Made by a program: the position numbers and the translations under genes. A DNA stretch of 28,994 bases from the NCBI RefSeq assembly GCF_013403565.1, contig NZ_CP058630.1, positions 1 to 28,994 of the forward strand. Reading direction: 5' to 3'. The notes beneath the pieces are model-generated. The model ran no database searches. It worked only from the letters and a program-made list of their open reading frames with translations, and was not told the DNA's origin. Numbering within the stretch: the stretch's first letter is position 1; each line of letters starts with the position of its first letter. Positions 3,693 through 24,035 of this stretch are shown here, piece by piece. Source of the stretch: Chitinibacter bivalviorum (lineage in GTDB: Bacteria > Pseudomonadota > Gammaproteobacteria > Burkholderiales > Chitinibacteraceae).

Positions 3693-3731
3693 CCTGAAAA
3701 GACTGCGGAGCTATTAAAGGTCAGCGTCGAA

Positions 3732-3793: not shown

Positions 3794-3795
3794 GA

Positions 3796-3984: not shown

Positions 3985-6418
3985 TCATTCAGCTCCCAGT
4001 TTCTCTGCGAGAGTGGCTTCTTGAACTGCTGGCGCCTCTGTTGCCCCCGATGCTCTTAAGCAACGATGAATATGCTCGGAGTCTTGCTTAAGTCGTTCAA
4101 ATAATGAGCTTTGCAGCGCTCTGCATTCGGGAACTTCTACGGGGTTGCTCCACGCTCAAATACTCCCGCAAGATGGGAGTATTCATTATTGATTCTGTCA
4201 ATTAACACCGCAGGGATTTTATCTTCACCAAAAAATAGGCGCAGCGTACCTTCGTTCATTCCTTGATCGGGGTATTTGTAATACAAATAAATTTCAAAAA
4301 ATTTCTGGCATTGTTTGAAAAATTATAAAATATTACATAATTAGTGTCGTCAACTGACTCAATGGATGCGCACTTATGTATTTGTTGAAATAGTAATTGA
4401 ATTCTGTGACAAACTCTTTGAGATATTTTGGCATGATCGCAATTGTCGATATTCTATCTTTGCGGGCAACGACGAAATAACCCTTTTGATAGTCTTTAAG
4501 TTTGCCATCGTTGTCGGAATATTTTCCGCCAAGGCGCTTAAGGTATTTCAGAAAATCAAGATTATGGGTTGATATAAAGAGCTGAGAGAATTTTTTGGTA
4601 GAGACGATCTCGGTGTTTAGCAGGCTGTAAATAAAAAAGATGTGATTCCATCTAGAGACGAAATGGGGTCGTCAATCCAAATGACTGGTTTGGTATCTCG
4701 TGTGGCGATATCGTCGAGCTTTGCCAAAAAGTAACAAAAAGCAAGTAGGCTACATTCACCTTCACTTAGGTGATGAGCTTTCTTGTTGTCACGAATCACC
4801 TCGAAGCGTACTCGTTTTGCTCCCTCCCCCTGTTCCTGTTCGGCTTTGAGTTTGAGAAATCTATGCCCGAAGAAATTATTCAAATACTCATTGACCTTTA
4901 TCGCACCTTCTCTTCGTCGTTCAGCTCGCGCTTTTTCGATGCAATCTCGTTAGTTTTTTCGAGGACTTTGGCATTGATTTGACTGACTGCTTGTATTGAT
5001 TCTGTGCTTTTTTCCTTGTAACTCTACGATGGTGGATTGTTGTTTGTCGTATTCGATAGTGATCAGATAGTCTGAAACTTCCTTTAGACGTAGCTTATCT
5101 TTGGCCGATTTCTGATCGCGAGCCAACATGGTTGTATAACCATCAGATTTCTCGCAAAGTGCCTTGTAATTATCCCAAATGGATAATAAATGATCTGTAG
5201 CCTCTACTGGAGCTTCAAAAGTTCTGGAGCTTAGAATGTTTTCTTTTCGATACGTTAGCTGGAAAATTAACAAATCCAATGATTGTGTGTAATTTTTGAT
5301 GGCCTCTTTTAATGAATATCCAGATCGCTTAATTCTTGGTGATATTTTGAGTAGAAAAGATTTTTATCAATCGATAAGGCCGAGCTGATGGATTTTTTTT
5401 CGTCCTCAATCTGTACTATTAGTGCATCAATATTTTTCTCAAGCTGATTCGACTCTTCGTCAAAATGTTTATCTAGTACTGCCCAGCGGTCCGCGGAAAT
5501 TGTACTGTCACAAAATAGGCACTGATTGAATTTGTCCTTGTGATGTGCTCGGCCTTCATTGACCCATCTGTGCAGGACTGCATTTTTTACCAATTCTTCA
5601 ATTTTGTTTGATTCGCTGATCTTCTTAGTGACAAGTACTTCGGTTTGCGCTGCTAGGCTTTGGAATTTAGTGTTAGGTGCCGTGAAGTGAGGAATTGGTT
5701 GAAGAGCAGTTTCTAAAATTAGTTTTTCGTATTGTGTTAGCTGTTCTTCTGAAGGAGGGTGATAATCTGTAGCTTGAACTAATGAGATATCTCCCTTCAA
5801 CTTCTGTATCGTGTAGTTTTGATCGCCAAAGCGTTCCGACTTGTATTTTATCCCTATTTTTTTATCTGTTGCTTTACTACTTAGTTGAGTTTCTAGGGCA
5901 TCCTTGGCCGACTGATGCTGTTGTGATGCTATGCCGCTGGCCGTTTTGGCTGAACTCAATTGAGCATAGAGTCCTGTTTCGTTAGCTATTTCGTTTGAGC
6001 CAAGTTCTAATTCAAGCTCTGCTATTTCTTGTTCGATCTTGTTGTTATCGTCACCAAGGATAGCAAATGATTCAATGTTTTCATCAGGGTTTACTATAAA
6101 GCGTAAATTGTCACGAATAAAGTCTTCATTAAATACTCGAATGGTTTTTGTGTGATTTTTTAGTGCCGCTTGTGTTACTTGAGAGTTGTCATCTAAAGTG
6201 ATGCTGAATGATGGATTTTCGTATTTATCAGATAATACACCCGTTTCTAATGCACGTATAATGCGTGAAAGAGTTGTCTTGCCGGAGTAGTTCCTGCCAT
6301 AAATCACATTAATATCTTGAAAAGGAGTGGTTTTTCCATTTTCTTCACGAACTTCCGTATCCCATTCGAAACCTTTAAAAACTCCCAGATTGCTAATAGA
6401 TTTTATTTTTCTAATCAT
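3985..6418 (-). pseudogene. RloC/PrrC-like anticodon nuclease with SMC/ABC-type ATPase (COG4694 family), frameshifted
   Basis: The first 369 codons (6418 to 5309) are open: Walker A GRNYSGKTT at residues 41-49, FNEDFI at ~97, long coiled coil, and half zinc hook CLFC at 300-303. After frame breaks near 5295, 5010, 4905 and 4650 come the ABC signature HHLSEGECSLLAF, Walker B PVIWIDDPISSLD and the switch region FISTHNLDFLKYLKR. Further shifts near 4355 and 4300 give YNFSNNARKFFEIYLYYKYP, then INNEYSHLAGVFERGATP. RKFFE and NEYSH fit the RxxxE...H catalytic pattern of PrrC/RloC anticodon nucleases, which cleave tRNA during phage response. The zinc hook favours RloC over PrrC. The last frame ends KLGAE at 3985, for ~810 aa, a normal length. 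No restriction-modification genes are present. Whether the breaks are errors or decay cannot be told. Confidence 0.75.
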
Positions 6419-6530
6419 ATCTCAGTCCTTGTAGTCTTATAGTGATCGATATCTTTCTGTGCTTAGTTAGGCTCTTAGCCAAGCAGTGGAATTGCTTTAG
6501 TTGTTTCGTGGTTTTAGATTTTTTTGGTGT

Positions 6531-9500
6531 TTATTGATGCTGAATATTTACTGATGAATTTCCTTCGTAATTTGATCTGATGATTTTTATTTGTAATGAT
6601 ATTCGCTCTTTTAATACATCTATATGGCTAATAATTCCTATTGTCTTTCCGCTGGCATTCATCGTATCTAGTGCATCTAGAGCAGTTTCGAGTGCCTCAC
6701 CATCTAACGTGCCAAACCCTTCATCCAAGAATAGTGAATCAATAGATGTCTTATTGCTGACAAGATCCGATAATGCTAGGGCAAGAGCTAGACTGACTAG
6801 AAACCCTTCGCCTCCGGATAAGGTCCGAGTATCTCGTGTTATATCTCCCTGCCAAGTGTCTGAAATTTCTAACTCCAGCTCACCTATAGATTTACGCTGA
6901 AGCAAATAGCGTCCGTGCAGCCTTTCAAGATGCCTGTTTGCTAGATGCATCAGGTGGTCTAGTGTCAGCCCTTGGGCAAATTTGCGGAATTTGTCGCCTT
7001 CTTTGGAGCCAATCAAGCTATTGAGTCGTTGCCAGATATCTACGTCTGAAACTTGCGCGGCAATTTGCTCGAACAAGGCGGCTTGGTTGTCTCGGCGCTG
7101 TGCGTCGTCGCGCAACAGCGCCTGTTGCGCACCTTGTTCCGCAGAAATGGTTTGACGTTGTGTATCCAGTGCTGTGATTTGTGTCTCTAGCGCGGTAAGG
7201 TCATGCGGGGTGAGGGCTTGTACTTGTAGTTGGAGTAGTGCCTCTGACGCTGTTTGTTGCACAGCTTTGCTGCGTTCAAGTGCTTGATGTAGCTGTTGTC
7301 GCATAGCGAGTAGCTGTTGACGGGTTTCTGTCGGTAGCAGAGCTTGCGTAAAGGCAGCTTGGTCGGCAAAAGGGCTTTGCGCCAATGCCGCCAGCCTATT
7401 GGCTTTGGCGGCTTCGCAAACTTGCTGCTGGGTTTGCCTATCTGCAGCCAATTGCGTTTCTTGACCCTGCAAAGTAGCGATTAGCGTCGTTAGTCGTTCG
7501 ACTTCTGCTGTGTACTGTATAAGCATTGATTCACTGATTGTGATGTCCAAGCGTTGCGGTGTAATAGGTTCCGCCAGTTTTTCCCAACGCGTTTGCCAAG
7601 CCATTTTCTGGCCAGTCGCTTGCTCGCTACGATGCTGTTGCTTTTGTAGATTGCTGGCTTGTTGTTGCAGTGCTTGTAGCTTTTCCTGCCAAGTTTGCCA
7701 GTCATGCTGGCGGCTTTCCAGCCAGCTACTCATATCATCGGCGGGAGCAAAACCTGAATCATTAATGGCGGTGCTTAGCGCCATCGTAGCTTGTTGCTGA
7801 GCTGCTGCATCCTTGGCAATTTGTTGCTCAAGCTCGTTGATGCGCTGGACAGCTTGATCATAGGTTTGCTGAAGTAGCGCCAATTGCGTATCTGCAGCTT
7901 GTAGCTGCGCATCATGAGCAGCCTTGTTTTCGCGGGCTTTGATCAAAGCTTGCTGGGCCGTCTCGGTGTGCTCAAGTGCAGCTCTGAGCTCGGCTTCCTG
8001 CTGAGCACTGTTTTCTAGTCCTTGTGTGAGCAACTCGGGATCTTGCCAAGCCGTTGCTGCTATCTCTAGAGCAGGAGCTGATGCATCCCATTTGACTTGA
8101 ATTTCTTGTTGAGTATGAACCAGCCCAGCCAGTACTTGCTGGTACTGTGCCAGGCTACCGGTGAGCTGGTCGATCTGGCTTTTGAGCGCTTGGCCACCTT
8201 CTAAAGCTTGTTGCAGTGCTGCGTCTTTTTCCTGCAATGCGAGCGCAGTGGCCGATACATCGAGCTGCTGATAGCGTTGAACGCTGGGATGTTCAGGAGA
8301 GCCGCATAATGGGCATGCCTCACCTGGCTTTAAGGACGCACGGTGGGACTCTAGGCTCTGAATTCGTTGCTCTTGCTGTAGCAGCTTGCGCTTGTCATCT
8401 GCCTGTTCTTTAAGTTGTCGGTAGTTATTTCGAGCAGTATCTAGCGCGGTCTGTAGCTCAGTCAGTTGCTGGTTGGCTGTCGCAATATGGCTTTCCTGAT
8501 CGCTACATTGCTTGCTGTTCCGGCGCAGTTGCTCGGCCAAAGAGCTGATTTGCTGCCAAGCGATCATCTGGCCCTGTGTGCGTTGCCAGCTCTCACGTAG
8601 CGCTTGCAGAGTACTGCCGTTCAACAGCTGGTTGAGTTGTTGCTCGGCAACTTCGACGAGATTATTACTCTCTACACACTGAGATTGGCCCTGTTGCTGG
8701 TTCAGTCGTTGGCTGACAATTTGGGTTGCAACTTCGGCTTGTGTTTGGCTTTGTTTCTGATGTTGCGCCTCTAGGTCCAGAATCGCTTGTCGATTTAGCT
8801 CTAACTGCCGGTGTTCAATCTGCCACCCATTTAGCTTTTCACCTAAAGTTGCAAAGTGGGCGTGCTTGGTCTGCCAGACTTCCAGCTGTTCAATGTGGTG
8901 TTTGAAGCCTTCATAGAGCTTGGCCTCGTTTGCCGCTAATTCTTCTGCAATTGTCTTTGCCTGCCAATGGGCTGTGACTGATTGTTTTCGAGCGTTGGAC
9001 AGTTCTTCCTGAACAGCACTCAAACTGGACTGGATATGGTGGAGGCGTCCGTCTGCATCTTGCCATGCAGCAAAAGTCGGGCGGAGGGCTTCTGCTGGCT
9101 CGCTGAGTTCAAGCTGATACAGTTGTGGTTGCGCCGATTCTAGTGCAAGTCTTGCTGTGTCTACTGTTTGCTTCGCTTCCTGAGTCGCCTTTTCTGCCTG
9201 AGAAAGCTGAAGGCGCCATTGTCGTAGCTGTTGCAGTTGTCCGAGTTCGCTTTGCAGTACGGCTAATTGCTCCGTGAGTTCGGCGATTCTTGTTTGCATT
9301 GCTTGGCGTTTTTCATCTGGAAGCAGCTCTACACCGTCGGCTTTTGCTTTTAACTGATCAAGTGTGCTCTTAGCATCACGAGCTTGCTCAAAAACGCGCT
9401 GTGAAATCTGCCCGTAGATATCGGTACCGGTTAGTTCTTCCAGTAATTCTGCTCGTTCATTAGCATTGGCATTCAGGAAGGCTGCAAAACCACCTTGGGC

Positions 9501-9956
9501 TAGCATCATTGATTTAGTGAAGCGCCCAAAATCCAGACCGGTTATGGCTTCAATGCGTTTGAGTTTATCGTTGCTGTGGGTAGTTAGGATTGTGCCATTA
9601 GCATCTGCCAACTCAACCTTGGGGGCTTGCAGAGCACCATCGGCTTTGTCGCGTGCTCGCCGCTGACTCCAGAATGCACGATAAATTTGCCCCTTTACTT
9701 CGAATTCCACTTCGGCCAAGCAGTCAGCTGTGTGTCGCGTCATGATTTCATTCGATGAGGCTGAAATATTCTTAAGCCGTGGTGTTTCGTGATACAGCGC
9801 CAAGCAGATCGCATCGAGCAGTGTAGATTTACCGGCTCCAGTTGGGCCGGTGATGGCAAATAAACCGTTGTCCTTGAAGGGCGGCTGAGTGAAATCAATC
9901 TTCCACTCGCCCTTGAGCGAATTAAGGTTTTTCAGGCGCAGGGTGAGGATTTTCAT
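6531..9956 (-). CDS. sbcC: Exonuclease subunit SbcC (SMC-like ATPase)
   Basis: ATPase and tether subunit of the SbcCD (Rad50-Mre11 type) nuclease that opens hairpins and trims DNA ends. It has 1141 aa against ~1050 in E. coli. Walker [10 protein letters not shown] is at residues 37-45. Two very long glutamine-rich coiled coils flank the zinc hook [10 protein letters not shown] (cysteines 548 and 551). The ABC signature RTLSGGEGF falls at ~1043 and Walker [13 protein letters not shown] at ~1074. Its ATG overlaps the sbcD stop as ATGA, so the two were translationally coupled. The reading frame is fully intact although its partner sbcD is cut off upstream, which removes the native promoter. Any expression now depends on readthrough from the IS or on an internal promoter. 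A 112-bp gap separates it from the nuclease gene downstream. Confidence 0.95.
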
Positions 9957-10291
9957 GCCTGCTCCTCACGAAGTAGCGAAACGATGTTCTGGTAACGTTG
10001 TTTGAGTTGTTGAGTCAGATCTTCGGGCAGGTCTTCCTGTTCAAGGCGTTTGGCAAAAACCTCATCTGGGCTAAGTTCATCTAGGGTGACCTTAGCCTCA
10101 GCATGCAACCTAGCAGCAACTTCACTGCGATCTCGCCGTATGCGTAGTACCTCAACTGGCAAACTTTCGGTCAAGGCTTGAATGCGTGGTTGCAAGTCAG
10201 ACAGATAATCATCGCCTCGCACCGTTACCTCCAGCCATACAGGACGCTCAGACTGCGCAGATTGTGCTGCGGTTTGAATTGCTGGGCCCAG
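9953..10291 (-). pseudogene. sbcD: Exonuclease subunit SbcD, C-terminal fragment cut by IS21 element
   Basis: The last 112 residues of the SbcD nuclease subunit: LGPAIQTAAQ, then PVWLEVTV, DDYLSDLQPRIQALTESLPVEVL and the tail [13 protein letters not shown]. The conserved region matches the SbcD capping domain. All phosphoesterase motifs (DxH, GNHD, GHxH) are missing because the sequence stops at the terminal base of the insertion element (10292). Full SbcD is ~400 aa, so about three quarters is gone and is not found on the far side of the IS. A GTG at 10220-10222 could start an 89-residue peptide, but it has no ribosome binding site of note and would lack the nuclease. The fragment is therefore non-functional as a nuclease. 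Confidence 0.9.
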
Positions 10292-10338
10292 TGTTGAGGC
10301 GCACTGAATATTGACCAGCTGTGCGCGTTGAATTTTGA
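10292..10338 (+). repeat. Left terminal repeats of the IS21 element
   Basis: Outer unit TGTTGAGGCGCACTGAATAT and the following bases to CCAGC match the right end perfectly in inverted orientation; the inner unit is TTGAATTTTGACCAGG. These are presumably the IstA binding sites. The sbcD frame happens to stay open through the outer repeat, which is coincidence. Confidence 0.85.
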
Positions 10339-10413
10339 CCAGGCATTTTTGCCGTACACCCTCGTGTACGACCCTCTTTAGCCTATCGGCTTTTGCTGCT
10401 TTTTACTACTTCT

Positions 10414-11211
10414 TCAGAACAACTCCCCACGTTCGGGCAACTGTTCTTTTTGTCTTTCTCGCTCTTGAATCTTCAATTTTGCATTCGCACTGCTTTGCTT
10501 AAATCGCCACGATTCATTCCCCGTTTCAATAATGTGGCAATGATGGGTCAGTCGATCGAGTAAAGCCGTGGTGAGTTTGGCGTCGCCAAAGACCGTGGGC
10601 CATTCTGCAAAGGTCAGATTCGTCGTGATAATCACACTGGTGCGCTCGTACAGCTTACTCAGCAAATGAAACAGCAATGCGCCACCCGCTTGTGAGAATG
10701 GCAAATAGCCCAGCTCATCCAGAATGACCACATCCATATGCATTAAGCTATAGGCCAACTTGCCTTTGCTTTTCTCTTGCTCTAATCGGCTGACCAATTC
10801 CAACGTGGAATAGAAACGAACCCGCAAACTATGTTGCTGGATGCCATGAACACCCAGCGCAGTGGCGAGGTGGGTTTTACCGGTTCCTGTACCACCAATC
10901 AGGACGATATTGTGTGCCGCCTGAACGTATTCACCCTGTGCCAACACACGAATCAAACGTTCATCGACTTTCGACTGGCTAAAATCAAAGCCCGCGAGAT
11001 CCCGATGATGCGGGAAACGAGCCGAATGCATCTGATAGCTGATGGAGCGTACGTGTCGGTCGGCATGTTCCGCATCGATCAGTTGCGTGAGGTTGGCATC
11101 GAGGATGTCCATCGTGCCACTGCTGCTGGCTTGCTGCAGCTCAGCGTAAGTGGCGGCCATACCATGCAGCTTGAGCCGCTTCAGTTCGGCTTGAATATCC
11201 AACTTCATCAT
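10414..11211 (-). CDS. istB: IS21-family transposition helper ATPase IstB
   Basis: AAA+ ATPase that activates the IstA transposase and helps select target DNA, related to DnaC. It has 265 aa, the usual length. It starts [19 protein letters not shown], a typical IstB opening. Walker [15 protein letters not shown] is near residue 108 and Walker [13 protein letters not shown] near 160, followed by [31 protein letters not shown], which contains sensor and arginine-finger residues. Its ATG overlaps the istA stop as ATGA, and GGGGGTG just upstream is a strong ribosome binding site. The frame is intact, so the element could still be active. Confidence 0.95.
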
Positions 11212-12704
11212 GACACCCCCAACCCTTGATGCAATTGATCGTAGCGCTGGCTATCTGCCAGTGGTGGCTCATTCAGCGCCAATGCCACTTCAAGGGCATC
11301 TGGCCGAGGTGCTTCATGCAGTCTGGCCAGCACATTCAGGACATGCTCAGCACTGACTTTGCCCGTTTCAAGCATCAACGCGACGGCGACCTGAACGGTT
11401 TCTAAGCCGTATTTGGGTACACAACCCAAGACCTTGGCCATGATGCGATCTCCGCCTTTATGGCGCAATAAGCGCTGTTGTAGTTGCCGCAAATCTGCGG
11501 GCATTTCATTGAACGGAGCTCCGTTGCGCAACGCGCCAGGCTTTTGCTCGAGCAAAGGAAGATAGTGTTGCCAGTGATAAAACGTCTGACTGCGCTCAAA
11601 GCTGCGTACATGCTCTGCGATCACTTGCTGGTCGGCATAGATAACCAGACGGCTGGGATATAGCCGCACACTCACCATTTGATTGGCCCAATGACACGGT
11701 ACTGAATAGCGATTGCGCTGGAAGGTAATCAGACACGTACTTGATACCCGCGCCAAGACTTCGGTGTAACCATCAAATGCACCTGGAAATGGCATCATGT
11801 GAAGCTGCTCATCTTGGCGTAATTCGGCTAATGTGAGCTCAGGATACTCTGGGTGACGCAATTGCTGCCAAGCCAACTGACATTGTTGCTCAAGCCAAGC
11901 ATTGAGCTCGTCAAAGCTCGCGAATTTGAGCGCCAATGCGGCTTGCCAGATGTGTCGGCGCCGGTCTTGTACATTCTTCTCGACAATACCTTTCTCCCAG
12001 CCGGAGGCGACATTGCAAAACTCAGTATCAAACAGATAATGGGCAGTCATCGCATGAAAGCGGGCGTTGATGATGCGTTCCTTGCCGGGCAGCACCTTGT
12101 CGACTGCCGTCTTCATGTTGTCGTAAATCCCTCGCAGCGGCACGCCCCCTAACATCTGAAAGGCGCGAGTATGCGCATCAAACAGCATTTCATGGCTTTG
12201 GCTAGGATACGCCATCAATGCAAAAGCGCGACTCGCGCACAGCTTCATGTGGGCCAGCAAGACTTTGCGATGAATACCACCAATGAATGCATGCTCTTCG
12301 CTCCAATCGAACTGAAATGCCTCGCCCAAGGCAAAGCGCAGTGGCACAAATGCAGACTTCAAGTGATGCCCCATCGTTTGCGTGCGCCAGTGACGAATAA
12401 ACGCAGTGACTCGGGAGTAATCGCCGCCAAAGCCCGCAGTCACTAGCTCCTGGAACAATACCTTGGCAGTACGCCGGTCTCGTTTGGGGCGATGTAGATC
12501 GGTTTGTAATGCTTTAACGAGTTGAGGAATAAAGGGAGACAGCTTGGTTTGGCTAGACTTGCGTCGATAGCGCGGCTCGGTAGCTGAGTCGGTACGTAGC
12601 CATTTCTTGATGGTATTGCGCGTTAAGCTGGTGCGCCGTGCAATCTCGCTGATCGAGAGTTGGTCGCGAAAATACATGCGGCGAACTTTAGCAAATGTGG
12701 CCAT
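11208..12704 (-). CDS. istA: IS21-family transposase IstA
   Basis: DDE transposase of the IS. I choose the ATG at 12704 ([12 protein letters not shown]) because GAGGTG lies 6 bp upstream and family members start there; a longer frame to 12764 would run into the terminal repeats. Length is 498 aa. The N-terminal helix-turn-helix is [22 protein letters not shown]. The integrase core follows, with [14 protein letters not shown] (first Asp), [15 protein letters not shown] (second Asp) and the [13 protein letters not shown] region (Glu). A C-terminal beta-barrel region contains [20 protein letters not shown]. It is translationally coupled to istB. All key residues are present. Confidence 0.95.
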
Positions 12705-12764
12705 GGTAATCACCTCAAAATCCTTGCTCGATGAATGAGCTTGGAGATTAGTTACCCTGGTCAA

Positions 12765-12817
12765 AATTCACTGCGCAAAACCGCAGTTTGCTGGTCAATA
12801 TTCAGTGCGCCTCAACA
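12765..12817 (-). repeat. Right terminal repeats of the IS21 element
   Basis: Reading inward from 12817 the end starts TGTTGAGGCGCACTG and carries a second unit GTGAATTTTGACCAGG. Between the units lies the small hairpin ACTGCG-GTTTTG-CGCAGT. The outer repeat adds the codons LRRTEY and a stop to the truncated tnsA frame. Confidence 0.85.
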
Positions 12818-13013
12818 CCGCAAGCTCTAGGTCTGATAGTAGGTGATGCACACGACCTGTTTTTTGGGAAAAAACCCGGTGCGATCTACCCTGTGATGGG
12901 ACATCTTGAACAAATAGCCAAGGCTTATAGTTTTGACAAAATCCTTGGCCTCGTCCGTCTTTAATCCTGCGAGCTATCTGAAGCTCTGTTAGTGCTTGTT
13001 GAGATTTCGACAT
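12818..13013 (-). pseudogene. tnsA: Tn7-type TnsA endonuclease, N-terminal fragment cut by IS21 element
   Basis: TnsA cuts the 5' ends of Tn7 during cut-and-paste transposition and works with TnsB and TnsC. The fragment MSKSQQALTELQIARRIKDG continues through GRGQGF, YKPWLFVQDVPSQGRSHRV and KTGRVHHLLSDLELA, and is very close to the start of TnsA of Tn7 itself. With the ATG at 13013 the numbering matches Tn7 TnsA, so the Glu of SDLELA is catalytic E63. D114 and K132 are lost. After LELA the frame enters the IS repeat and stops at 12795. Only ~65 of ~270 residues remain, so it is dead. tnsB, tnsC, tnsD and tnsE are absent. An in-frame ATG at 13043 exists but lies within the conserved upstream hairpin. 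Confidence 0.92.
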
Positions 13014-13052
13014 GAAAAAGTCCAGTACGCTTTTCATTAGCATAGCTGGACT
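13014..13052 (-). promoter_or_regulatory. Hairpin with T-run directly before tnsA, covering its ribosome binding site
   Basis: On the minus strand AGTCCAGCTATGCT (13052-13039) pairs with AGCGTACTGGACT (13031-13019), followed by TTTTTC and then the tnsA ATG. GGA, the only Shine-Dalgarno-like bases, is inside the 3' arm. From memory, the same AGTCCAG...CTGGACTTTT hairpin stands before tnsA in Tn7. It can act as an intrinsic terminator for transcripts arriving from glmS and may also limit tnsA translation. Confidence 0.65.
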
Positions 13053-13055
13053 CTC

Positions 13056-13145
13056 TGAATTTACAACTATTTTGTGTATTTTAGATCTTTGTTGTCATAA
13101 TTTAGAATTATTTTGTGTATTTTAGAACTATTTTGTTCTCCCACA
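13056..13145 (-). mobile_element. Tn7-type transposon right end (four TnsB-type binding sites)
   Basis: Reading inward on the minus strand from 13145 the end starts TGTGGGAGAACAAAATAG. Four sites follow with core ACAAAATAGTTCTAAA, found on the plus strand at 13124-13138, 13104-13118, 13083-13095 and 13063-13077. They are spaced 20-21 bp and abut, as in the right end of Tn7, whose left end has separated sites instead. tnsA begins just inside, the Tn7 arrangement. Confidence 0.92.
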
Positions 13146-13170
13146 ATAGTCGGAATAATTACCATACCAA
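13146..13170. other. attTn7 insertion site; 25-bp spacer to the glmS stop, with presumed target duplication ATAGT
   Basis: The transposon terminus (13145) is followed by exactly 25 bp before the glmS TAG (13171-13173), the spacing used by Tn7 in many bacteria. ATAGT (13146-13150) should be the 5-bp target duplication. The recognition sequence for TnsD is the conserved 3' end of glmS coding for PRNLAKSVTVE. The natural glmS terminator would have been displaced by the insertion. Confidence 0.85.
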
Positions 13171-15006
13171 CTATTCAACCGTGACCGATTTGGCTAGATT
13201 GCGGGGTTTGTCCACATCGGTGCCTTTGCGGTGGGCGGTGTGATAGGCCAAGAGTTGGAGCGGAATAGTAAATACAATCGGTGCCAGCGGACCCGTGTTG
13301 AGGGGTAAGAAGATGGCTGATTTTACATAGGGTAATGCCGCTTCGCACCCCGGTTCTGCGATCAGATAAATCTGTCCACCACGCGCCTCAACTTCACGTA
13401 GATTTGACATGAGTTTTTCAAATAAAGCGTCGTTGGCAGCGCAGACGATGACGGGCATATTTTCATCAACGAGGGCGAGCGGGCCGTGCTTCAATTCGCC
13501 TGCGGCATAGCCTTCGGCATGAATGTAGGCAATTTCCTTGAGTTTGAGTGCGCCTTCCAGCGCGATCGGAAATAAGGTGTTGCGGCCTAGGTAGAGCGTA
13601 TGTGCGTGGTGGCTCAGTGCTTGCGCCCAGCCTTCAATTTCACTTTCTTGACTGAGTGCTGCGCTAATCATGGCGGGCAGCCGCGGTAGCCAGTTGGCCA
13701 ATTCAGCAAGCTTTTCGTCGCTTAAACTGGATCGTGCTTGGGCAAGGCAGCCGGCAAATACATACAGTGCGGCAAGTTGGGTGGTGAAGGCTTTGGTTGA
13801 GGCTACGCCAATCTCTATGCCTGCTTGGGTCAAAATGCTCAGATCTGCTTCGCGGGTTAAGGTGGAGTGGGCGACGTTGCAAAGGGCAAGAATTTTAACT
13901 TCGCCGCGTTCTTTGGCGTTTCGGATCGCGGCCAGAAGATCGGCGGTTTCGCCTGATTGCGAGATGGCGATGATCAAAGTGCCACGTTGCTCTAGGCCGT
14001 TGCTATACCGGTATTCGCTTGCAATATCCACACTGACTGGCATACCGGTATATGCCTCTATCCAGTATCTGGCGACTAGCCCTGCGTGGTAGCTGGTGCC
14101 GCAGGCGATGATTCGGATTGCGGTGGCTTGCTGTAAAATTTGCTGGGCTTGTTCACCAAATTGATCGGGGTTAAAACCTTGGCTTAGCGCTTGATTGATT
14201 GTGTTGGCAATTGCAGTGGGCTGCTCGAAAATTTCTTTCTGCATGTAATGCCGATACGGGCCAAGCTCGGCCGAATCGGCACAGACATCGAGCATGCGTG
14301 GTTGGCGAATCACGGCAAGGCCGGTGTTATCCCAAATCTGTATTTTTTGATAATCCAGGAGCGCAATATCACCTTCTTCGAGGTAGATCATTTTTTGCGT
14401 CAATGGGAGCAGTGCCGCGATATCCGAGGCAAAAAAGAACTCTTGAAACCCCAAGCCAATGACCAGCGGGCTGCCTTGTCGGGCACAAATTACTTGAGTT
14501 GGATTTTGTAGGCTTAATACACCAATGGCAAAAGCACCATGCAATTGCCGAATGCTGGCCTGAACTGCGGCGAGAAAAGTTGGGGTCTGTGTTTGCTGAT
14601 ATGCAATCAGGTGCGCAATGACTTCGGTGTCTGTTTCGGACGTGAATGTATAGCCTAATGCAATGAGTTCATTTTTGATGTCGGCGAAATTCTCGATGAT
14701 GCCGTTATGCACCACCATGATCTCGTTGCCGCCTAAATGCGGATGGGCATTGGCTTCATTGGGCGCACCATGCGTTGCCCAGCGAGTATGGGCTATTCCA
14801 ATTTGTCCTGTGGAATTGGTGGTCTTGGCGTTCAGATCGGCGACTCGCCCAGCCACGCGAACACGTTCAAATTCGGGGCTGTTAGCTTGATTGAGCACCA
14901 AGGCAATGCCGCTAGAATCATAGCCCCGATACTCAAGGCGAGATAAGCCCTCGATGAGCATGGGTACAACATTGCGGGTTGATACTGCGCCAACGATTCC
15001 ACACAT
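13171..15006 (-). CDS. glmS: Glutamine--fructose-6-phosphate aminotransferase (isomerizing)
   Basis: Makes glucosamine-6-phosphate, the first step to UDP-GlcNAc for peptidoglycan and LPS. I choose the ATG at 15006 (MCGIVGAV): Cys2 must become the N-terminal nucleophile, and AAGGACAGGA lies 4 bp upstream. A longer frame to 15081 is spurious. Length is 611 aa (E. coli 609). The class II glutaminase domain shows RGYDSSGIAL, HTRWATHGAPNEANAHPH and HNGIIENF. The two sugar-isomerase domains show CGTSYHAG, SQSGETADLLAA, EGALKLKEIAYIHAEGYAAGELKHGP and the C-terminal KPRNLAKSVTVE. The frame is intact. No glmS ribozyme is expected in this phylum and none is apparent in the 180-bp divergent region shared with the next gene. 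Confidence 0.97.
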   Translation of the reverse strand: MCGIVGAVSTRNVVPMLIEGLSRLEYRGYDSSGIALVLNQANSPEFERVRVAGRVADLNAKTTNSTGQIGIAHTRWATHGAPNEANAHPHLGGNEIMVVHNGIIENFADIKNELIALGYTFTSETDTEVIAHLIAYQQTQTPTFLAAVQASIRQLHGAFAIGVLSLQNPTQVICARQGSPLVIGLGFQEFFFASDIAALLPLTQKMIYLEEGDIALLDYQKIQIWDNTGLAVIRQPRMLDVCADSAELGPYRHYMQKEIFEQPTAIANTINQALSQGFNPDQFGEQAQQILQQATAIRIIACGTSYHAGLVARYWIEAYTGMPVSVDIASEYRYSNGLEQRGTLIIAISQSGETADLLAAIRNAKERGEVKILALCNVAHSTLTREADLSILTQAGIEIGVASTKAFTTQLAALYVFAGCLAQARSSLSDEKLAELANWLPRLPAMISAALSQESEIEGWAQALSHHAHTLYLGRNTLFPIALEGALKLKEIAYIHAEGYAAGELKHGPLALVDENMPVIVCAANDALFEKLMSNLREVEARGGQIYLIAEPGCEAALPYVKSAIFLPLNTGPLAPIVFTIPLQLLAYHTAHRKGTDVDKPRNLAKSVTVE

Positions 15007-15187
15007 AAGTCCTGTCCTTGAATGATGCAATGCAGCATGCACTGTAGGGCAAACGAGGGGACATGTCGCTAAACAAAACACCTTATATGGGGGCTAATAT
15101 GGCTTTACCGTTAGACGGATGGTTGTGCCAAATCAGGCTTTGCTCACTACATTGAACTATAAGGTTTCTGCGGCTTGGAGCTAGGTT

Positions 15188-15487
15188 ATGGCCATACAAT
15201 TATTAAGTTTGGGTGTGATTGGGGTTCGATTATTGGATCGTATTTTGACGTCCAATGCGACCTATCCAGAAGAGCTGGCAGATCAGATTGTCGATGAAAT
15301 TAATTTGTATCTCAGCCGCGCCCCTGAGGCAGAAAAACCCATGTTGTTTAATTTATCTTGCGAAGTGCACGAGGCACTTTCTGATCGCTTTGGCCGGGTG
15401 GATTCTCCGCAAGTGCGTCTGGATATATCGCAAATGATGGGGCTTTTGGTGTATCGGGCCAAAATGAGCGCAGGGCAAGGCCGCTGA
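15188..15487 (+). CDS. Small conserved-looking hypothetical protein
   Basis: 99 aa, MAIQLLSLGVIGVRLLDRIL then a largely acidic helical protein with EELADQIVDEINLYLSRAPEAEKP, ALSDRFGRVDSPQVRLDISQMMGLL and a basic end. It is divergent from glmS with 181 bp between the starts. GGAG lies ~8 bp before the ATG. There is no signal peptide, although the first 20 residues are hydrophobic. I recognise no domain. Codon use and an open frame between well-formed neighbours favour a real gene. Confidence 0.6.
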   Translation: MAIQLLSLGVIGVRLLDRILTSNATYPEELADQIVDEINLYLSRAPEAEKPMLFNLSCEVHEALSDRFGRVDSPQVRLDISQMMGLLVYRAKMSAGQGR

Positions 15488-15604
15488 CTTCTGCTGATTG
15501 ATTTCTAATGTGGCTTAATTACTTTGCAAGCTCGGTTTGTCACCTTGCATTCCTTTTTTTCCGCTATTCTCTGCCTACCTAATTCTCTAGCTGTAATCAT
15601 CCCA

Positions 15605-16711
15605 ATGAAACTGAAAACTTCCGATTTGATCGAGCCTCTGGTGGCGCTGGGGGCTATCTTTTTACTGTGTTTAACAGTTTTTTCTATCATGAAGCCCTTT
15701 TTGGCCGCCAGTTTATGGGCCGCTATATTGGTGCTGAGTACTTGGAAACCCTATTTGTATTTGGTTGAAAAGTTAAACGGCCGCCGAGCTTTGGCGGCAA
15801 TTTTAATGTTGCTCACCTTGTGCTTATTTATTTTGCTGCCTGTGATTATTGCAGCGAGCGATTTTGCAAATGTGGGTGTCAACTTTATTAACCAAGTGCG
15901 TTCTAGCTTTGATGCTGGATGGCCTGCGCTGCCAGATTGGTTAACGGGCCTGCCTTTGGTTGGTGAAAAGGTCAATGAGTTCTGGGTCGGTTTGGGGGCA
16001 CATGATGCAAAAACCATGGCGATGATCCGTGGCTTTATTGGTCCAGTTACCGAGTGGGTTATCTTTTTGGCGGGGCAAGTCGGCGGTGGCATGGTGATGA
16101 TGCTGATGAGTCTTTTCATCGCATTTTTCATTTATCAAGATGGTGAACATATTCGCGAGTGGGTACGGGGGCTGATGGAGCGGGTTGCGGGTGAGCGAAG
16201 TACCGAACTCTTAGCGGTGTCAGTGAATTCCACCAAAGGCGTAGTCTATGGTTTTTTGGGCACCGCGGTAGCGCAAGCGCTGCTTTCATGGATTGCATAT
16301 GTCATTGCGGGTGTCCCCAATGCGATGTCCTTGGGTTTTGCCAGCTTCATTATGGCTTTGTTGCCGGGTGGGCCTGTTTTGTTGGGTTTGCCTGCAGCGG
16401 CTTGGTTGTATCATCAAGGTGATGTGGGTTGGTCAATCTTTTTGGCGGCGTGGATGTTAATTGTCGTGAGCTCAGCCGATAATGTGATTAAACCCATACT
16501 GATTGGTAAAGGTAGCAACCTGCCATTTATTCTGATCTTGTTTGGTGTGTTGGGTGGCGCTCTGGCCTTTGGTATGTTGGGCGTGTTTATTGGCCCAGTG
16601 TTATTGACGATTTTCTATGAAATAGCACGCAATTGGGTCTTGCAACCAAGTTCATTGCCACCTGAAGCAGTAGTGGGTAACTCAACCGACGTGTCCAATA
16701 TCAAAAACTAA
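15605..16711 (+). CDS. AI-2E/PerM family inner-membrane transporter (YdiK-like)
   Basis: Polytopic membrane protein of the AI-2E transporter (PerM) family, 368 aa from the ATG at 15605. Hydrophobic segments include VALGAIFLLCLTVFSIM, FLAASLWAAILVLSTW, LAAILMLLTLCLFILLPVII, MVMMLMSLFIAFFIY, then four closely packed segments near the end including the family signature DNVIKPILIGKGSNLPFILILFGVLGG. The motif GTAVAQALLSWIAYVIAGVP is also typical. Members have been proposed to export autoinducer-2 or exchange cations; the substrate here cannot be told from sequence. No good ribosome binding site precedes 15605. The frame reaches back to 15524, but those codons do not look like protein. Confidence 0.88.
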   Translation: MKLKTSDLIEPLVALGAIFLLCLTVFSIMKPFLAASLWAAILVLSTWKPYLYLVEKLNGRRALAAILMLLTLCLFILLPVIIAASDFANVGVNFINQVRSSFDAGWPALPDWLTGLPLVGEKVNEFWVGLGAHDAKTMAMIRGFIGPVTEWVIFLAGQVGGGMVMMLMSLFIAFFIYQDGEHIREWVRGLMERVAGERSTELLAVSVNSTKGVVYGFLGTAVAQALLSWIAYVIAGVPNAMSLGFASFIMALLPGGPVLLGLPAAAWLYHQGDVGWSIFLAAWMLIVVSSADNVIKPILIGKGSNLPFILILFGVLGGALAFGMLGVFIGPVLLTIFYEIARNWVLQPSSLPPEAVVGNSTDVSNIKN

Positions 16712-16745
16712 GTCAATATTCGGATCACGTTGAAGCTGGATAGGG

Positions 16746-16777
16746 AAAGCCACGGTAATCTTGCCGTGGCTTTTTTA
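16746..16777 (+). terminator. Intrinsic terminator after the PerM-family gene
   Basis: AAAGCCACGG (16746-16755) pairs with CCGTGGCTTT (16764-16773), followed by TTTATTT; the arms plus the T-tract form a strong terminator 35 bp after the stop codon. Confidence 0.88.
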
Positions 16778-16816
16778 TTTGGCGGGTATATCTCTGAGAT
16801 TTATTATTAAATATAA

Positions 16817-16900
16817 TCTTGATTGTATACGGTGGGGGAGTATTTAGTCGGGGGAATGTCCCCCGCAATAAAAAAGCCTGCTATAACAGCAGGCTTTTTT
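16817..16900 (+). ncRNA. Candidate small RNA: promoter-like box, hairpin and terminator in a gene-free gap
   Basis: TTGATT (16819-16824), a 16-bp spacer and TATTTA (16841-16846) look like a sigma-70 promoter. Just past the expected start is the hairpin CGGGGG-AATGT-CCCCCG (16849-16865 with flanks), then a second hairpin AGCCTGCT / AGCAGGCT ending in TTTTTT (16870-16900). No plus-strand gene follows. The product would be ~50 nt. The last hairpin also serves the minus-strand chemoreceptor gene, so it may be only a terminator. The 16-bp string TCTTGATTGTATACGG recurs upstream of murB. Confidence 0.3.
16870..16900. terminator. Bidirectional intrinsic terminator (chemoreceptor gene, minus strand)
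   Basis: AAAAAAGCCTGCT and AGCAGGCTTTTTT pair perfectly around ATAAC, giving T-runs on both strands. It lies 22 bp beyond the stop of the minus-strand chemoreceptor gene. Confidence 0.9.
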
Positions 16901-16921
16901 CAGAAGAGATGATGCTGCAAT

Positions 16922-18541
16922 TTATAGTTTAAATTTCTGGACCAAGCTGCCTAGCTGGCTGGACACAGATTTAATCGATTGCGCAGCACCCACCGTGCCT
17001 TGGGCTGCGGACATCGTGCCGCTGGATGATTGAGCCACTTCGTCCACATCATTGCGAATTTGCATGCTGGCTCCGACTTGCTCGGATAGGGCATTACCAA
17101 TGGCGCCCACTACAACGGAAGTGGCCTCGGTTTCATGTCTAATCGCTTTAACTGCTTCGCCACCTTCTTTTGCTTGGCGTATCCCTTCTTTCAATTGCAC
17201 AAACATGTCATCCATGCGGCTTTTGGCGTTCTGACCACTGCCTTGTACTGCAGTGATCGTTTGGCCAATTTCTTGCGTGGCGGCACTGGTACGTTCTGCG
17301 AGTTTGCGAACTTCATCGGCAACTACCGCAAAGCCACGGCCCATATCCCCCGCGCGTGCCGCTTCAATGGCGGCGTTAAGCGCGAGCAAATTGGTTTGAT
17401 CGGCTACATCGCGAATCACCGCAATGACGGCGGAAATACTGGCTACGCGATCAGCAAGATCATCAATACTGCTTTGTGTATCGCCCACGGCCAATTCAAT
17501 ATCGGCAAACCGATTGACTGCGGATGAAATGACATTCAAGCCTTTGGCTGAAATCTGTGTGGCCGATTCGCTTTGCTGGCGCGCGGTCGTTGCTTGTTCG
17601 GCTGCTGAGCGAGTTTGTTCAGCAAAATGCTCGGCGGTTTGTGCAATACGCGTGGCGGCGTGACCTTGCGCCTCGATCAGACGGTTGCTGTCTTGCGCAC
17701 GCGAAACGATGTCATCGCTGGTGTGGTGTAAGGTCGTCACGGCTTGTGAAAGCTGGGTTAAGACGCTGCGCAATGATTCACGCATCCGCAAGACTGATCC
17801 ATAGATACTCTGAGGTGAAGCGCTAGAAAGCTCACGACTTTCTTGCAAATTACCGTCGGCAACCGCTTGCACTAATTTAAGTACTTCAGCTGGTTCGCCT
17901 CCCAAATCTTTGAGGATGCGACGCACGGTGGTGAGCATAAAGAAGGCCACAATGGCTGCCACGGCTAAACAGATCATAACTTCCCAGCGAGCTGCGCTCC
18001 AGAAGCGAGCATCCGCTTCGGCTTGGCTCACACCGTTGCCAACAATCCAACCCCAGCGCGGCGTTTTTTGCGCTACTGAAAGCAGTTCCACCACTTTGCC
18101 ATCGCGCTCGGATGTCCAAGGGTATTCTGTGAGTGCGCCGCCAGATTTTTGCAGAGCCGCAACAGCGAGTGCGCCGACGCTGCCGCCTTTCGAGTCTTTA
18201 AATTCATTAAAGCTGGTGCCGTGCAATTGAGGGTCGAGCGGGGTGGCGACAAAATTTAATTTTTCGTCGGTGACATAGACATACTCAGATTTGTGATATT
18301 TATTTTCGCGCAAAATCTGGGTGGCAATGGCTTTGGCTTGGTCTTCTGGAATCTTGCCACTGGCGGCCATATTCTCAAGTTGAACAATGGTGAGGTAGGT
18401 ACTGGTCATCAATTGTTCAATGCGGGCGCGATTGTCTTTGGCGCTCATCTCGCGCATGGTGCCTAAACCCACAAACATGACGGCAATGAGTGCAATTAAG
18501 ACACCGATAGAGAGTGCCCAAGCTTTTAATTTTAATGACAT
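16922..18541 (-). CDS. Methyl-accepting chemotaxis protein with single Cache domain
   Basis: Transmembrane chemoreceptor that signals to CheA/CheW. I choose the ATG at 18541 ([14 protein letters not shown]), with GGAG 8 bp upstream; the frame extends 12 codons further without support. Length is 539 aa. TM1 is at ~8-28. A periplasmic single-Cache (sCache_2-like) domain shows [28 protein letters not shown] and [20 protein letters not shown]2 is near 187-205, a short HAMP-like segment follows ([20 protein letters not shown]), and then the signalling domain with hairpin tip [38 protein letters not shown]. It lacks the NWETF-type C-terminal pentapeptide and ends LVQKFKL. The ligand is unknown; related Cache receptors bind small organic acids. 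It is a single-gene unit with its own terminator. Confidence 0.93.
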
Positions 18542-18615
18542 GTTTATTGCTCCTGCGGCAAACAAGCGAGAGTTCAAGATTGTTATGAAAGGTACTATTT
18601 AATATTAGATTTGTC

Positions 18616-19455
18616 TTATGTTGTGAGTTCTCCCGCCCCTAAAAGCATCACTTTGCCCTTTAGATGTAAATCCAGCTTTGTATCAATTTGTAGATAAATC
18701 ACGGATAGGCGGCTAATTAATCTTTGTATGGTGTGGCCTTGTTCGATCCTGATATTGAAGGGTAAACGCCCACCTTGTGCCAGATATGCGCTGCCTAAAT
18801 TTAGTGCCGCGGAGCCCGCGCCAAAATCTTCATAAATTCCAAAATGATCCGCAACAAAGCTACGCAGCGTAATTAAGTCGTTATCGGCGTTCCAAATCAC
18901 CGCTTGAGGATTTTGTTTGGGGCTTTCTGCATATTCGGCCAGTAACGCTGGATGAGGATGGGCTTGGAGTACTGTTTGGCGAGATTTAACTTGCACCAAT
19001 AGCTGCTCGACACCGGTGTCGACAAATTGCAGAGGTGAGAGAATTTCACGTGCATCGATACCCAGTGCATGTGCGATTTCGACTTGCCCTCTGGATGCGG
19101 GTCGAGTTCGACCTGCCGAGCTTACTAAGGTAATGCCATCGGAATGTTGATTGAGCTGATAGCTACCCGTTGCGCAATGCAACTGAATTTGTGGGCTGAT
19201 ATGGTGCGTAAAACAAACGGCGGCTGCGCCCAAAAGCCCTTTGCCTGAAAAGGGGAGTTCATATTGCGGATGAAAAAAGCGAGTTTTTCCGCTTGATCGC
19301 TCTACAAAGGCAGTTTCGCTGCCATTCATCTGGTAAGCCAGCATTTGCATGGTGTGTTCGTCGGGCCATTGCGCCAAATCGAAGACGACTAATGGGTCGC
19401 CAGCTTGCGCTTTTTCAGCAAAAACATTGAGCAAATTAAAAGGGTAACGAGCCAT
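18616..19455 (-). CDS. PhzF family isomerase-like protein
   Basis: 279 aa, homologous to PhzF/YddE proteins (diaminopimelate-epimerase fold, two similar halves). FNLLNVFAEKAQAGDPLVVFD opens the first half and NGSETAFV carries the Glu that acts as the catalytic acid/base in PhzF. DFGAGSAALNLGSAYLAQGG matches the GSAA loop of the second half. The usual glycine-histidine pair after the first strand (CGHATL in relatives) reads FSGKGLLGAA here, so the conserved histidine is replaced. There is no phenazine cluster around it, so a role in phenazine synthesis is unlikely; the true substrate is unknown. It is divergent from ppc with a 106-bp shared promoter region. Confidence 0.85.
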   Translation of the reverse strand: MARYPFNLLNVFAEKAQAGDPLVVFDLAQWPDEHTMQMLAYQMNGSETAFVERSSGKTRFFHPQYELPFSGKGLLGAAAVCFTHHISPQIQLHCATGSYQLNQHSDGITLVSSAGRTRPASRGQVEIAHALGIDAREILSPLQFVDTGVEQLLVQVKSRQTVLQAHPHPALLAEYAESPKQNPQAVIWNADNDLITLRSFVADHFGIYEDFGAGSAALNLGSAYLAQGGRLPFNIRIEQGHTIQRLISRLSVIYLQIDTKLDLHLKGKVMLLGAGELTT

Positions 19456-19509
19456 GAAATTTTCCGTTGAAAGTTTCTGCTTGAATCAGCGGCAGAGATT
19501 GTGAGTTTT

Positions 19510-19518
19510 TGGTAGAAT
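19510..19518 (+). promoter_or_regulatory. Extended -10 promoter element for ppc
   Basis: TGGTAGAAT fits the extended -10 form TGnTATAAT, with TAGAAT at 19513-19518, 43 bp before the ppc ATG. No good -35 box is apparent at the usual distance, which fits an extended -10 promoter. Confidence 0.4.
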
Positions 19519-19561
19519 GCTCAAAATTTTTCCGTCTTGAATTTGCCGAAATTGGATTGCC

Positions 19562-22318
19562 ATGTCTGTGATCGAACCTCTTGCTGAAAAGGATCTTCCG
19601 CTTAAGCGTGATTTGGACCTACTCGCCGCCTTGTTGTCTGACACTATTCGCGAACAGGCCGGTTCGGCCACTGCTGAGCAGATCGAATCGATCCGTGAGC
19701 TTGCATTTCGCTACGTTCAGGCTCATGACCCTGAAGCAGGTAAGGCGTTAGCGCGCTCTTTATCTATTTTGGATATGCCCACCACGATGGCTTTGGTGCG
19801 TGCATTTAGCTATTTCTCGCACTTATCCAATATAGCAGAGGATTTGCACCATAATCGCCGTCGTCGCGTACACAAAATTGCGGGTTCAAAACCGCAACGT
19901 GGCAGTATTGCTGCCGTACTCGAGACATTGTCTGAGCGCAATGTAAAACCATCAGAAATGTTGGCGATGTTGGCTGATACATTGATTGCGCCAGTAATGA
20001 CTGCGCACCCAACAGAAGTAAAGCGCAAGACGATTTTGGAATGTCACCGTGCATTGGCTGATTTGCTGACTCAGCGCGATCGTAGTCAAATGACGCCAGA
20101 AGAAATCGCCGCCAATCAAGAGGCGATGGAACGTGTCATGCTCACTTTGTGGCAGACGCGTGAAGTTCGTACTGTGAAGCTGACCGTACAAGATGAGATC
20201 GAGAACGGCGCAACTTATTTCCGTAATACCTTCCTGCATGAGATTCCACGTCTGTATCAAGATATGGAAGATCGCCTGTCTGAAATGACTGGCGAACAAG
20301 TTTCATTGCCCAATTTTATTCAAGTCGGTAGCTGGATCGGCGGTGACCGTGATGGCAATCCATTTGTGACTGCTGACGTTATGCGCTATGCCGTATCGCG
20401 CCAAGCAGGTGTTGCGCTTGATTACTACTATCAGCAATGTTTGAAGCTCGAAAGCGAGTTGTCGATGTCGACACGCTTGGTTCAGGTCGATCAAGATCTG
20501 TCAGCGCTGGCAGCGACTGCAACTGATGATGTAGTGCGTAAAACTGAAGAGCCATATCGCTTGGCTGTGACAGCAATTACGTCGCGTATTTTCGCAACTG
20601 CGATTCAGATCGGCACTTTCCATCACCAATTGCGTGATGTGGCTCATGCTCAGCCGTACGACAATGCAGAGCAACTTGCAGCCGATTTGGCCATTATTGC
20701 TCGTTCATTGAAAGCGCATGGCGCTGCTAAATTGGCCGGTGGTCGTCTGCGTCGTCTGCAACGTGCTGTGTCGGTATTTGGTTTCTTCCTTGCTCCGATC
20801 GATATGCGCCAGTTTGCTGGTTTGCATGAAAAAATGATCAGCGAGTTATTCAATCGTGCAGGCCTTGAAGAATACATGTCGCTGGATGAAAACAGCCGTC
20901 GCGTGGTGTTGCTGCGCGAATTGGCAAGTCCACGTCCACTGATTTGCCCGCACGATGTTTCATACAGCCCAGATGTTCAGCAAGAGCTGGATATCTTGAA
21001 GGCGGCGGCTGAAATTCAAGCGCGCTACGGTGAAGCGGTATTGCCAAACTACATCATTTCCAACTGTGCATCAGTTTCGGATATGTTGGAAGTGGCGGTC
21101 TTGCTGAACGATGTGGGTCTGGTGTCATTGGCGCCAACCGTACGTAGCAAAGTCAATATCATTCCTTTGTTCGAAACCACAGGTGATTTACGCGCCAGTG
21201 GCGAGATCATGACCGCATTGTTTGCGATTCCACAATGGCGTCAATTGCTGACTTGCCGTGGGGATGTGCAAGAAGTAATGTTGGGTTATTCGGATTCGAA
21301 TAAAGACGGTGGCTATTTGACTTCAAACTGGGAGCTCTACAAAGCAGAGTTGACCTTGGTTGAAGTGTTCAAAACTGCGGGCATTAAACTGCGCCTGTTC
21401 CATGGTCGCGGTGGTACTGTTGGTCGCGGTGGTGGCCCTGCTTATGACGCCATCTTGGCTCAGCCGCTGGGCTCAGTGAATGGCCAGATTCGGATTACCG
21501 AGCAAGGTGAAGTGATCACAGCCAAGTATGCGGATCGCGAAGTCGGTCGCCGTAACTTGGAAATCTTGGTGGCTGCCACTTTGGATGCCAGCTTCCCTGT
21601 GCCCTACGATACCGATCCAATGCCACGTCGCGCTTTGATGGAGCGGTTGTCGAACGCGGCTTATCGTTTCTATCGTGACTTGGTGTACGCGACGCCTGAC
21701 TTTATTACGTATTTCCTTGAAGCAACGCCGATCAAAGAGATTCCAAACCTTAATATTGGTTCTCGCCCGTCTGCGCGTAAAAACACCAGCAGCATTTCCG
21801 ATTTGCGCGCGATTCCATGGGTATTCTCATGGTCGCAGTGTCGTCTGATGTTGCCAGGTTGGTATGGTTTTGGTGCGGCCATTAGCGAGTATCTGGCTGA
21901 GGCGGGTGATGAAGGTTTGCAAACCCTCAATCACTTGTACAAAACATGGCCGTTCTTCCAGACCACCATTTCTAATATGGAAATGGTGTTGGCTAAATCG
22001 GATATTGCAATCGCAGCTCGTTATTCAGAATTGGTGCAAGATCAAGATGTGGCTAAACGCATTTTTGGTCGCATTAAAGATGAATGGCAGCGTTCGGTCG
22101 ATGCGGTATTGGCCATTACTGGTCATGAAAAACTGTTGGGCGATAACCCGATGTTGGCACGCAGCTTGGATAATCGTTTGCCTTATCTGGACCCGCTCAA
22201 TCACTTGCAAGTTGAATTGCTAAAACGCATTCGCGCGGGCGATGACAGCGAAGAATTGCGCCACGCCGTGCATTTGACAATTAATGGCGTGTCAGCAGGT
22301 TTGCGTAATAGCGGCTAA
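19562..22318 (+). CDS. ppc: Phosphoenolpyruvate carboxylase
   Basis: Carboxylates PEP to oxaloacetate to refill the TCA cycle. It has 918 aa, close to bacterial PEPCs (E. coli 883). The catalytic His lies in APVMTAHPTEVKRKTI (~residue 142-157). GSWIGGDRDGNPFVT follows at ~258, then VMLGYSDSNKDGGYLTSNW, the glycine loop FHGRGGTVGRGGGPAYDAI and QPLGSVNGQIRITEQGE. The C-terminus TINGVSAGLRNSG is the conserved effector/active-site tail with the usual final glycine. It is complete and uninterrupted, with start MSVIEPLAEKDLPLKRDLDLL. It is monocistronic in appearance; the next gene is 54 bp away behind a weak hairpin (22324-22359). Confidence 0.97.
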   Translation: MSVIEPLAEKDLPLKRDLDLLAALLSDTIREQAGSATAEQIESIRELAFRYVQAHDPEAGKALARSLSILDMPTTMALVRAFSYFSHLSNIAEDLHHNRRRRVHKIAGSKPQRGSIAAVLETLSERNVKPSEMLAMLADTLIAPVMTAHPTEVKRKTILECHRALADLLTQRDRSQMTPEEIAANQEAMERVMLTLWQTREVRTVKLTVQDEIENGATYFRNTFLHEIPRLYQDMEDRLSEMTGEQVSLPNFIQVGSWIGGDRDGNPFVTADVMRYAVSRQAGVALDYYYQQCLKLESELSMSTRLVQVDQDLSALAATATDDVVRKTEEPYRLAVTAITSRIFATAIQIGTFHHQLRDVAHAQPYDNAEQLAADLAIIARSLKAHGAAKLAGGRLRRLQRAVSVFGFFLAPIDMRQFAGLHEKMISELFNRAGLEEYMSLDENSRRVVLLRELASPRPLICPHDVSYSPDVQQELDILKAAAEIQARYGEAVLPNYIISNCASVSDMLEVAVLLNDVGLVSLAPTVRSKVNIIPLFETTGDLRASGEIMTALFAIPQWRQLLTCRGDVQEVMLGYSDSNKDGGYLTSNWELYKAELTLVEVFKTAGIKLRLFHGRGGTVGRGGGPAYDAILAQPLGSVNGQIRITEQGEVITAKYADREVGRRNLEILVAATLDASFPVPYDTDPMPRRALMERLSNAAYRFYRDLVYATPDFITYFLEATPIKEIPNLNIGSRPSARKNTSSISDLRAIPWVFSWSQCRLMLPGWYGFGAAISEYLAEAGDEGLQTLNHLYKTWPFFQTTISNMEMVLAKSDIAIAARYSELVQDQDVAKRIFGRIKDEWQRSVDAVLAITGHEKLLGDNPMLARSLDNRLPYLDPLNHLQVELLKRIRAGDDSEELRHAVHLTINGVSAGLRNSG

Positions 22319-22372
22319 GCACGCATCATTGGTTTAAACCCTATAAATTTAAACTGATGTGAGGAGCCACCA

Positions 22373-22848: not shown

Positions 22849-22880
22849 TGTATTGCCATGAAATCAAGTAATTAAGTGCT

Positions 22881-22910
22881 TCTTGATTGTATACGGGATT
22901 GGGGTATATT
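22881..22910 (+). promoter_or_regulatory. Putative murB promoter
   Basis: TTGATT (22883-22888), a 16-bp spacer and TATATT (22905-22910), 62 bp before the murB ATG. TCTTGATTGTATACGG (22881-22896) is identical to 16817-16832, so the box may be a shared promoter or operator. Confidence 0.45.
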
Positions 22911-22972
22911 TTCTTCCAAAGCCTAAATAGCTAGTAGATAATGTCGTTTTGCCGATCACTTGCATGCGACTC

Positions 22973-23991: not shown

Positions 23992-23997
23992 ATCCAG

Positions 23998-24035
23998 AAA
24001 AAACTGTATAAGTATGTGCCTATATACTGTTTTTT
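23998..24035 (+). terminator. Intrinsic terminator after murB
   Basis: AAAAAACTGTATA (23998-24010) pairs with TATACTGTTTTTT (24023-24035) with one mismatch, and the T-run closes it. It separates murB from the Eps operon. Confidence 0.65.

Follow-up and report, generated by a model that had tools for sequence, protein, structure and literature searches.

Tn7 inserts downstream of glmS, where it makes 5-bp duplications, and TnsD binds positions +23 to +58 of this site, according to an excerpt of PMC2918618. The Tn7-family element of Escherichia coli PK5074 (L064) lies 25 bp past glmS and encodes tnsABCDE together with dfrA1, i.e., all five tns genes and cargo. The prototypic Tn7, represented by that of E. 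coli 1EC213 (L065), also has a complete tns gene set. A reduced form is found in E. coli PI12 (L134, 8053-9853), where attTn7 holds the two end regions of Tn7 around IS903B. On its left, this element keeps 601 bp that match the left-end region of the 1EC213 Tn7 exactly, and GCGGG flanks the element on both sides.

Here, we analyzed C4, a minor contig of the four-contig assembly of Chitinibacter bivalviorum, whose 28,994 bases constitute the window, together with the main contig (C1, 3,575,171 bases). We consider it about 95% probable that a transposon of Tn7 proper, of the type found in PK5074 and Rheinheimera, entered attTn7 and was later gutted with the involvement of an IS21-family insertion sequence, leaving an orphan right end. 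As in PI12, glmS is followed by a Tn7 right end and then by an insertion sequence that interrupts tnsA within its first codons. However, PI12 kept its left-end region, whereas the search of this genome yielded no left end.

The non-coding right end spans 132 bp of the minus strand (13014-13145), from its terminus to the ATG of tnsA. Its outer base is 13145, and the TGTGGG terminus, TGTGGGAGAACAAAATAG, covers 13145 to 13128 on that strand. Four TnsB-type sites resembling ACAAAATAGTTCTAAA lie within the 90 bases after the terminus, all on the minus strand. From the outermost inwards, they are at 13121-13136, 13101-13116, 13080-13095, and 13060-13075, with 0, 1, 2, and 1 mismatches to ACAAAATAGNTCTAAA, and they start 10, 30, 51, and 71 bases from the terminus, which gives a spacing of 20, 21, and 20. 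This array is beyond chance: when up to 3 mismatches to ACAAAATAGNTCTAAA are allowed, 8 matches occur in the whole window (these four sites and four scattered ones) where 1.18 are expected, and none of 100 shuffles reached 8. No mononucleotide shuffle of the 132-bp end out of 20,000 had four sites (maximum 2), a soft control since the regular expression was written after the ends had been seen; for E. coli Tn7 it recovered just 2 sites, and for Rheinheimera 3. Directly before tnsA, at 13014-13056 (minus strand), a conserved, terminator-like hairpin with a T-run (AGTCCAG...CTGGACT) folds at -20.1 kcal/mol (z -6.4), and the same hairpin is present in the three other ends that were folded (PK5074, 1EC213, and Paenalcaligenes, L081). 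The features required of a Tn7 right end, a TGTGGG terminus and a closely packed array of TnsB-type sites, are both present.

The right end faces glmS, 25 bp past its stop codon, as in E. coli attTn7::Tn7. The glmS gene (13171-15006, minus strand) is an open reading frame of 611 aa from the ATG, with Pfam SIS and GATase domains and a 3' end that aligns with that of E. coli; its stop codon is at 13171-13173. Using the +23 to +58 numbering in the excerpt of PMC2918618, we place the putative TnsD-binding part of attTn7 at 13171-13206, in the 3' end of the gene. The spacer between stop codon and transposon end (13146-13170) includes ATAGT (13146-13150), presumably the 5-bp target duplication as copied on the right-hand side. 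Eight loci were measured for this distance, and it was 25 bp in all four glmS-linked ends (PK5074, 1EC213, Providencia L075, and Paenalcaligenes); of the remaining loci, three had no preceding glmS end and one (L083) had no detectable terminus. The earlier note, made from the letters alone, had given the terminus at 13145, four abutting sites of ~21 bp, the hairpin, and the 25 bp to the glmS stop codon, and our analysis bears it out on all of these. It had also put a tnsA start inside its piece, which began at 13014; the ATG exists, and its A is at 13013, one base from there.

The end aligns well with known Tn7 right ends, and best with the PK5074 type. From terminus to ATG, 108 of 133 positions (81%) are identical to PK5074 and Rheinheimera baltica (L073), 101/133 (76%) to the 1EC213 Tn7, 101/133 to Providencia, and 93/134 to Paenalcaligenes. 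What is left of tnsA is its 5' part, 65 codons (12819-13013, minus strand), cut by the insertion sequence. These 195 nucleotides are identical at 140 positions to both PK5074 and R. baltica and at 130 (67%) to 1EC213. The encoded residues are identical to PK5074 at 51 of 65 positions (78%) and to 1EC213 at 45 (69%), so that the fragment is nearer to the PK5074 type than to the TnsA of Tn7 itself, to which the earlier note had judged it very close. The remnant, PK5074, and R. baltica share the terminus, the site array, the hairpin before tnsA, and the TnsA N-terminus; Arsukibacterium indicum (L074) is like the remnant, its end being masked beyond the first bases. Relative to the PK5074 type, with its full gene set, the remnant differs by ~19% at the nucleotide level before tnsA, in its non-coding part, and by 28% within tnsA. 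The prototypic Tn7 has the same architecture and spacing, but differs in being complete and in the lower identities given above.

A scan of one genome per species found relatives of the TnsA piece at 53 loci. The best matches are in R. baltica (78%) and A. indicum (79% over 63 residues), Gammaproteobacterium UBA5078 has one at 73% over 55 residues, and loci resembling the prototypic Tn7 have at most 69% identity to the 65-residue piece. In a viral collection, 9 stretches matched a pattern and none of them encodes a relative. The fragment has no reported Pfam family, and its dN is 0.13, with an undefined dS estimate.

The TnsA tree has 50 rows and 65 columns: the window, two E. coli elements, and 47 loci kept out of 61 with a match after removal of duplicates and of matches shorter than 50 residues. 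It groups the remnant with PK5074, Rheinheimera, and Arsukibacterium (97/80). The prototypic Tn7 group adjoins them with weaker values (94/79), which over 65 columns are below the tree's own threshold and not starred. The alignments of the ends and this tree support the proposal of a Tn7-proper right end in attTn7, and point to one of the PK5074/Rheinheimera type. TnsA matches were found in 8 of the 42 family relatives, all with at most 52% identity. Since these are distant and fall in other branches of the tree, the element was most likely acquired by horizontal transfer.

The earlier note missed that the element is degraded: an IS21-family insertion sequence (10292-12817, minus strand, 2526 bp) interrupts tnsA after codon 65. 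This insertion sequence has istA (11208-12764), istB (10414-11211), and inverted ends, as expected for the family, to which it was assigned by the Pfam profiles IstB_IS21 (E 3.3e-80 for IstB) and Mu-transpos_C_2 and by its terminal inverted repeat. The TnsB of PK5074 has no match in the genome, and the same query matches 9 of 14 control genomes of the family (best E 4.7e-136, 38% identity). Its TnsC and TnsD also failed to match the genome, the positive control being for TnsB only. Searches with the TniQ and TnsA-N families were empty, but equally so in the 14 control genomes. Judging by what is left of it, the element appears to be dead, an orphan right end predicted to be unable to move by itself. 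As the second end was not found in the genome either, the 5-bp target duplication is a presumed one.

Elements of the IS21 family make short target duplications of 4-8 bp. C1 carries four full-length copies of this element in addition to that in C4, and the full-length copies are reported to be 100% identical. By eye, none of the four in C1 (1421596, 1749769, 1862742, and 2677107) has such a duplication, which suggests deletions or recombination at each of them. Window positions 10292-28994 correspond to C1 1752307-1733579 with 99.8% identity, all differences being gaps (25 openings, 0 mismatches), and positions 1-12817 align to C1 1434530-1421596 in three parts, of which one has 94% identity. 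C4 joins C1 1434530-1424134 to C1 1749768-1733579 inside an IS21 copy, and the two C1 copies at this junction are direct repeats ~325 kb apart. There are thus two readings of C4: either IS recombination made a duplication or circle of which it is a trace, or the assembly produced a chimera. Since the Tn7 remnant is also present in C1, it is not an artefact of C4. Of sbcD, just a C-terminal part (SbcD_C) is present, at window 9953-10291, before the IS21 copy. Several reading frames that are whole in C1 are broken in C4, at window 2000-5280 and 22900-28994, e.g., that of an AAA_13 protein (4617-6418), which is a single frame of 812 aa in C1. Those observed to be broken are situated near the ends of the contig, a pattern like that of low read coverage.

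In C1, the IS21 copy is followed by a partial transposase gene, which we take to be of the IS3 type (its Pfam match is HTH_Tnp_1, E 1.2e-8), and then by 5S, 23S, tRNA, and 16S genes. The same-genus relative G008 has a 5S gene ~650 bp past glmS, in a stretch that matches C1 at 96%. As C. bivalviorum likewise has an rRNA operon near glmS, the gene and the operon were probably neighbors before Tn7 entered, in which case the loss would have extended to beside the operon.

The end itself, its spacing and orientation, the truncation of tnsA, and the searches that did not find the other tns genes are best accounted for as follows, the insertion route and the order and kind of IS events being our reconstruction. 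A Tn7-proper transposon would have entered attTn7 by the usual TnsABC+D route, in which TnsD binds glmS at its 3' end and the right end is joined 25 bp beyond the stop codon. An IS21-family element would afterwards have landed in tnsA, or recombined into it, and an IS-associated deletion or rearrangement would have removed everything from tnsA codon 66 through the left end. The orphan right end left behind would be immobile by itself.

The intactness of what was left could have another cause, namely that the orphan end was kept because it is useful, its four TnsB sites giving target immunity at attTn7 against another Tn7 of the same type and its hairpin terminating glmS transcription. The terminus, the four sites, and the hairpin are all intact while the rest of the element is gone. 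Tn7 is described as having target immunity in an excerpt of PMC11406308. The transcriptional terminator of glmS is reportedly the place where Tn7 inserts, judging by how Gay et al. 1986, a reference of PMC2918618 and PMC10201428, is titled. However, youth would explain the intactness equally well: given the 100% identity reported among the full-length copies of IS21, the loss of the element may be recent. In addition, a simple terminator scan detected none at the right-end hairpin, and the case concerns one genome only. We thus regard retention for use as unlikely.

PI12, with both ends, GCGGG on either side, and IS903B inside, looks able to be moved in trans, and one could ask whether the Chitinibacter locus is likewise a non-autonomous mini-Tn7. 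This is very improbable, as a genome-wide pattern search accepting up to 2 mismatches found no left or second Tn7 end in addition to the known one, present in C1 and C4. Its sole extra match (C1:1776560, 2 mismatches) is isolated and has no site array beside it, so that we took it as due to chance; a control pattern also gave 1 match. Nor was a second ATAGT found beside a left end, the only candidate copy being that at 13146-13150.

That the locus is ordinary host sequence resembling Tn7R deserves next to no credence: nothing was found in its favor, it is refuted by the alignment in which 101 bp are 82% identical to the Tn7 end of an E. coli genome (E 4e-19), and the 327-bp remnant, from terminus to insertion sequence, has no blastn match at the glmS loci of 29 relatives. 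This alignment is the best match of a blastn search with the 128 bases 13171-13044, which under a loose E limit of 10 gave matches in 117 of 5426 E. coli genomes. Among the matches listed, the first aligned base of the query is 22, 26, or 27, at the terminus (base 27) or slightly before it. The comparison of relatives was the test set beforehand in the earlier note, and its proposal withstood it: glmS is present in 43/43 genomes, the sequence downstream of it was obtained for 29 of the 42 relatives (the other 13 gave no locus), the search recovered the remnant's own copy, and the first 120 bases after glmS in the 29, read by eye, also lack the remnant sequence. No clean ancestral empty site was identified among these loci.

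Just after glmS, the same-genus genomes G005-G008 have other repeats, which resemble the ends of another Tn7-like type, while G009 has another gene there and no such repeats. Five relatives, of which four belong to the same genus and one to a different genus (L025, L026, L027, L028, and L035), share a TATTTCAACC-like block that starts 21-24 bp past the glmS stop codon, and TATTAAAGT-type repeats begin after it, at 31-34 bp; these are possibly relics of another Tn7-like type. Of the open reading frames near the repeats, one (L130) has a sub-threshold TnsD match (E 0.075) and one (L129) has no match. With a strict motif applied to the 150 bases after the stop codon, 8 of the 29 relatives have two or three AAAGT-type repeats, 20 bp apart and starting 31-35 bp past glmS, and in three relatives (L040, L043, and L045) a TnsA-like gene lies no more than 350 bp past glmS. 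Several Tn7-like types seem to use attTn7 in the host's family.

The Tn7 type itself is well known, and the remnant adds a degraded example of it. The open-licence literature yielded nothing on Tn7 in Chitinibacter or on Tn7-like elements in Neisseriales. The remnant documents a lineage of Tn7 proper within a family where TnsA matches are otherwise distant, and it illustrates how an insertion at attTn7 can decay to a bare right end via insertion sequences. Surveys of tns genes can be misled by such relics, as this strain would count as Tn7-free. By megablast, at least 80% of the 134-bp Tn7R is present in 109/5426 E. coli genomes and at least 80% of tnsB in 98/5426, and this excess of genomes bearing Tn7R may hold more relics. 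If the orphan end is retained for its use, which is unlikely, it would be a lasting scar that blocks the same Tn7 lineage and supplies a terminator to glmS, and relics of this kind would alter which Tn7 types can colonize the strain.
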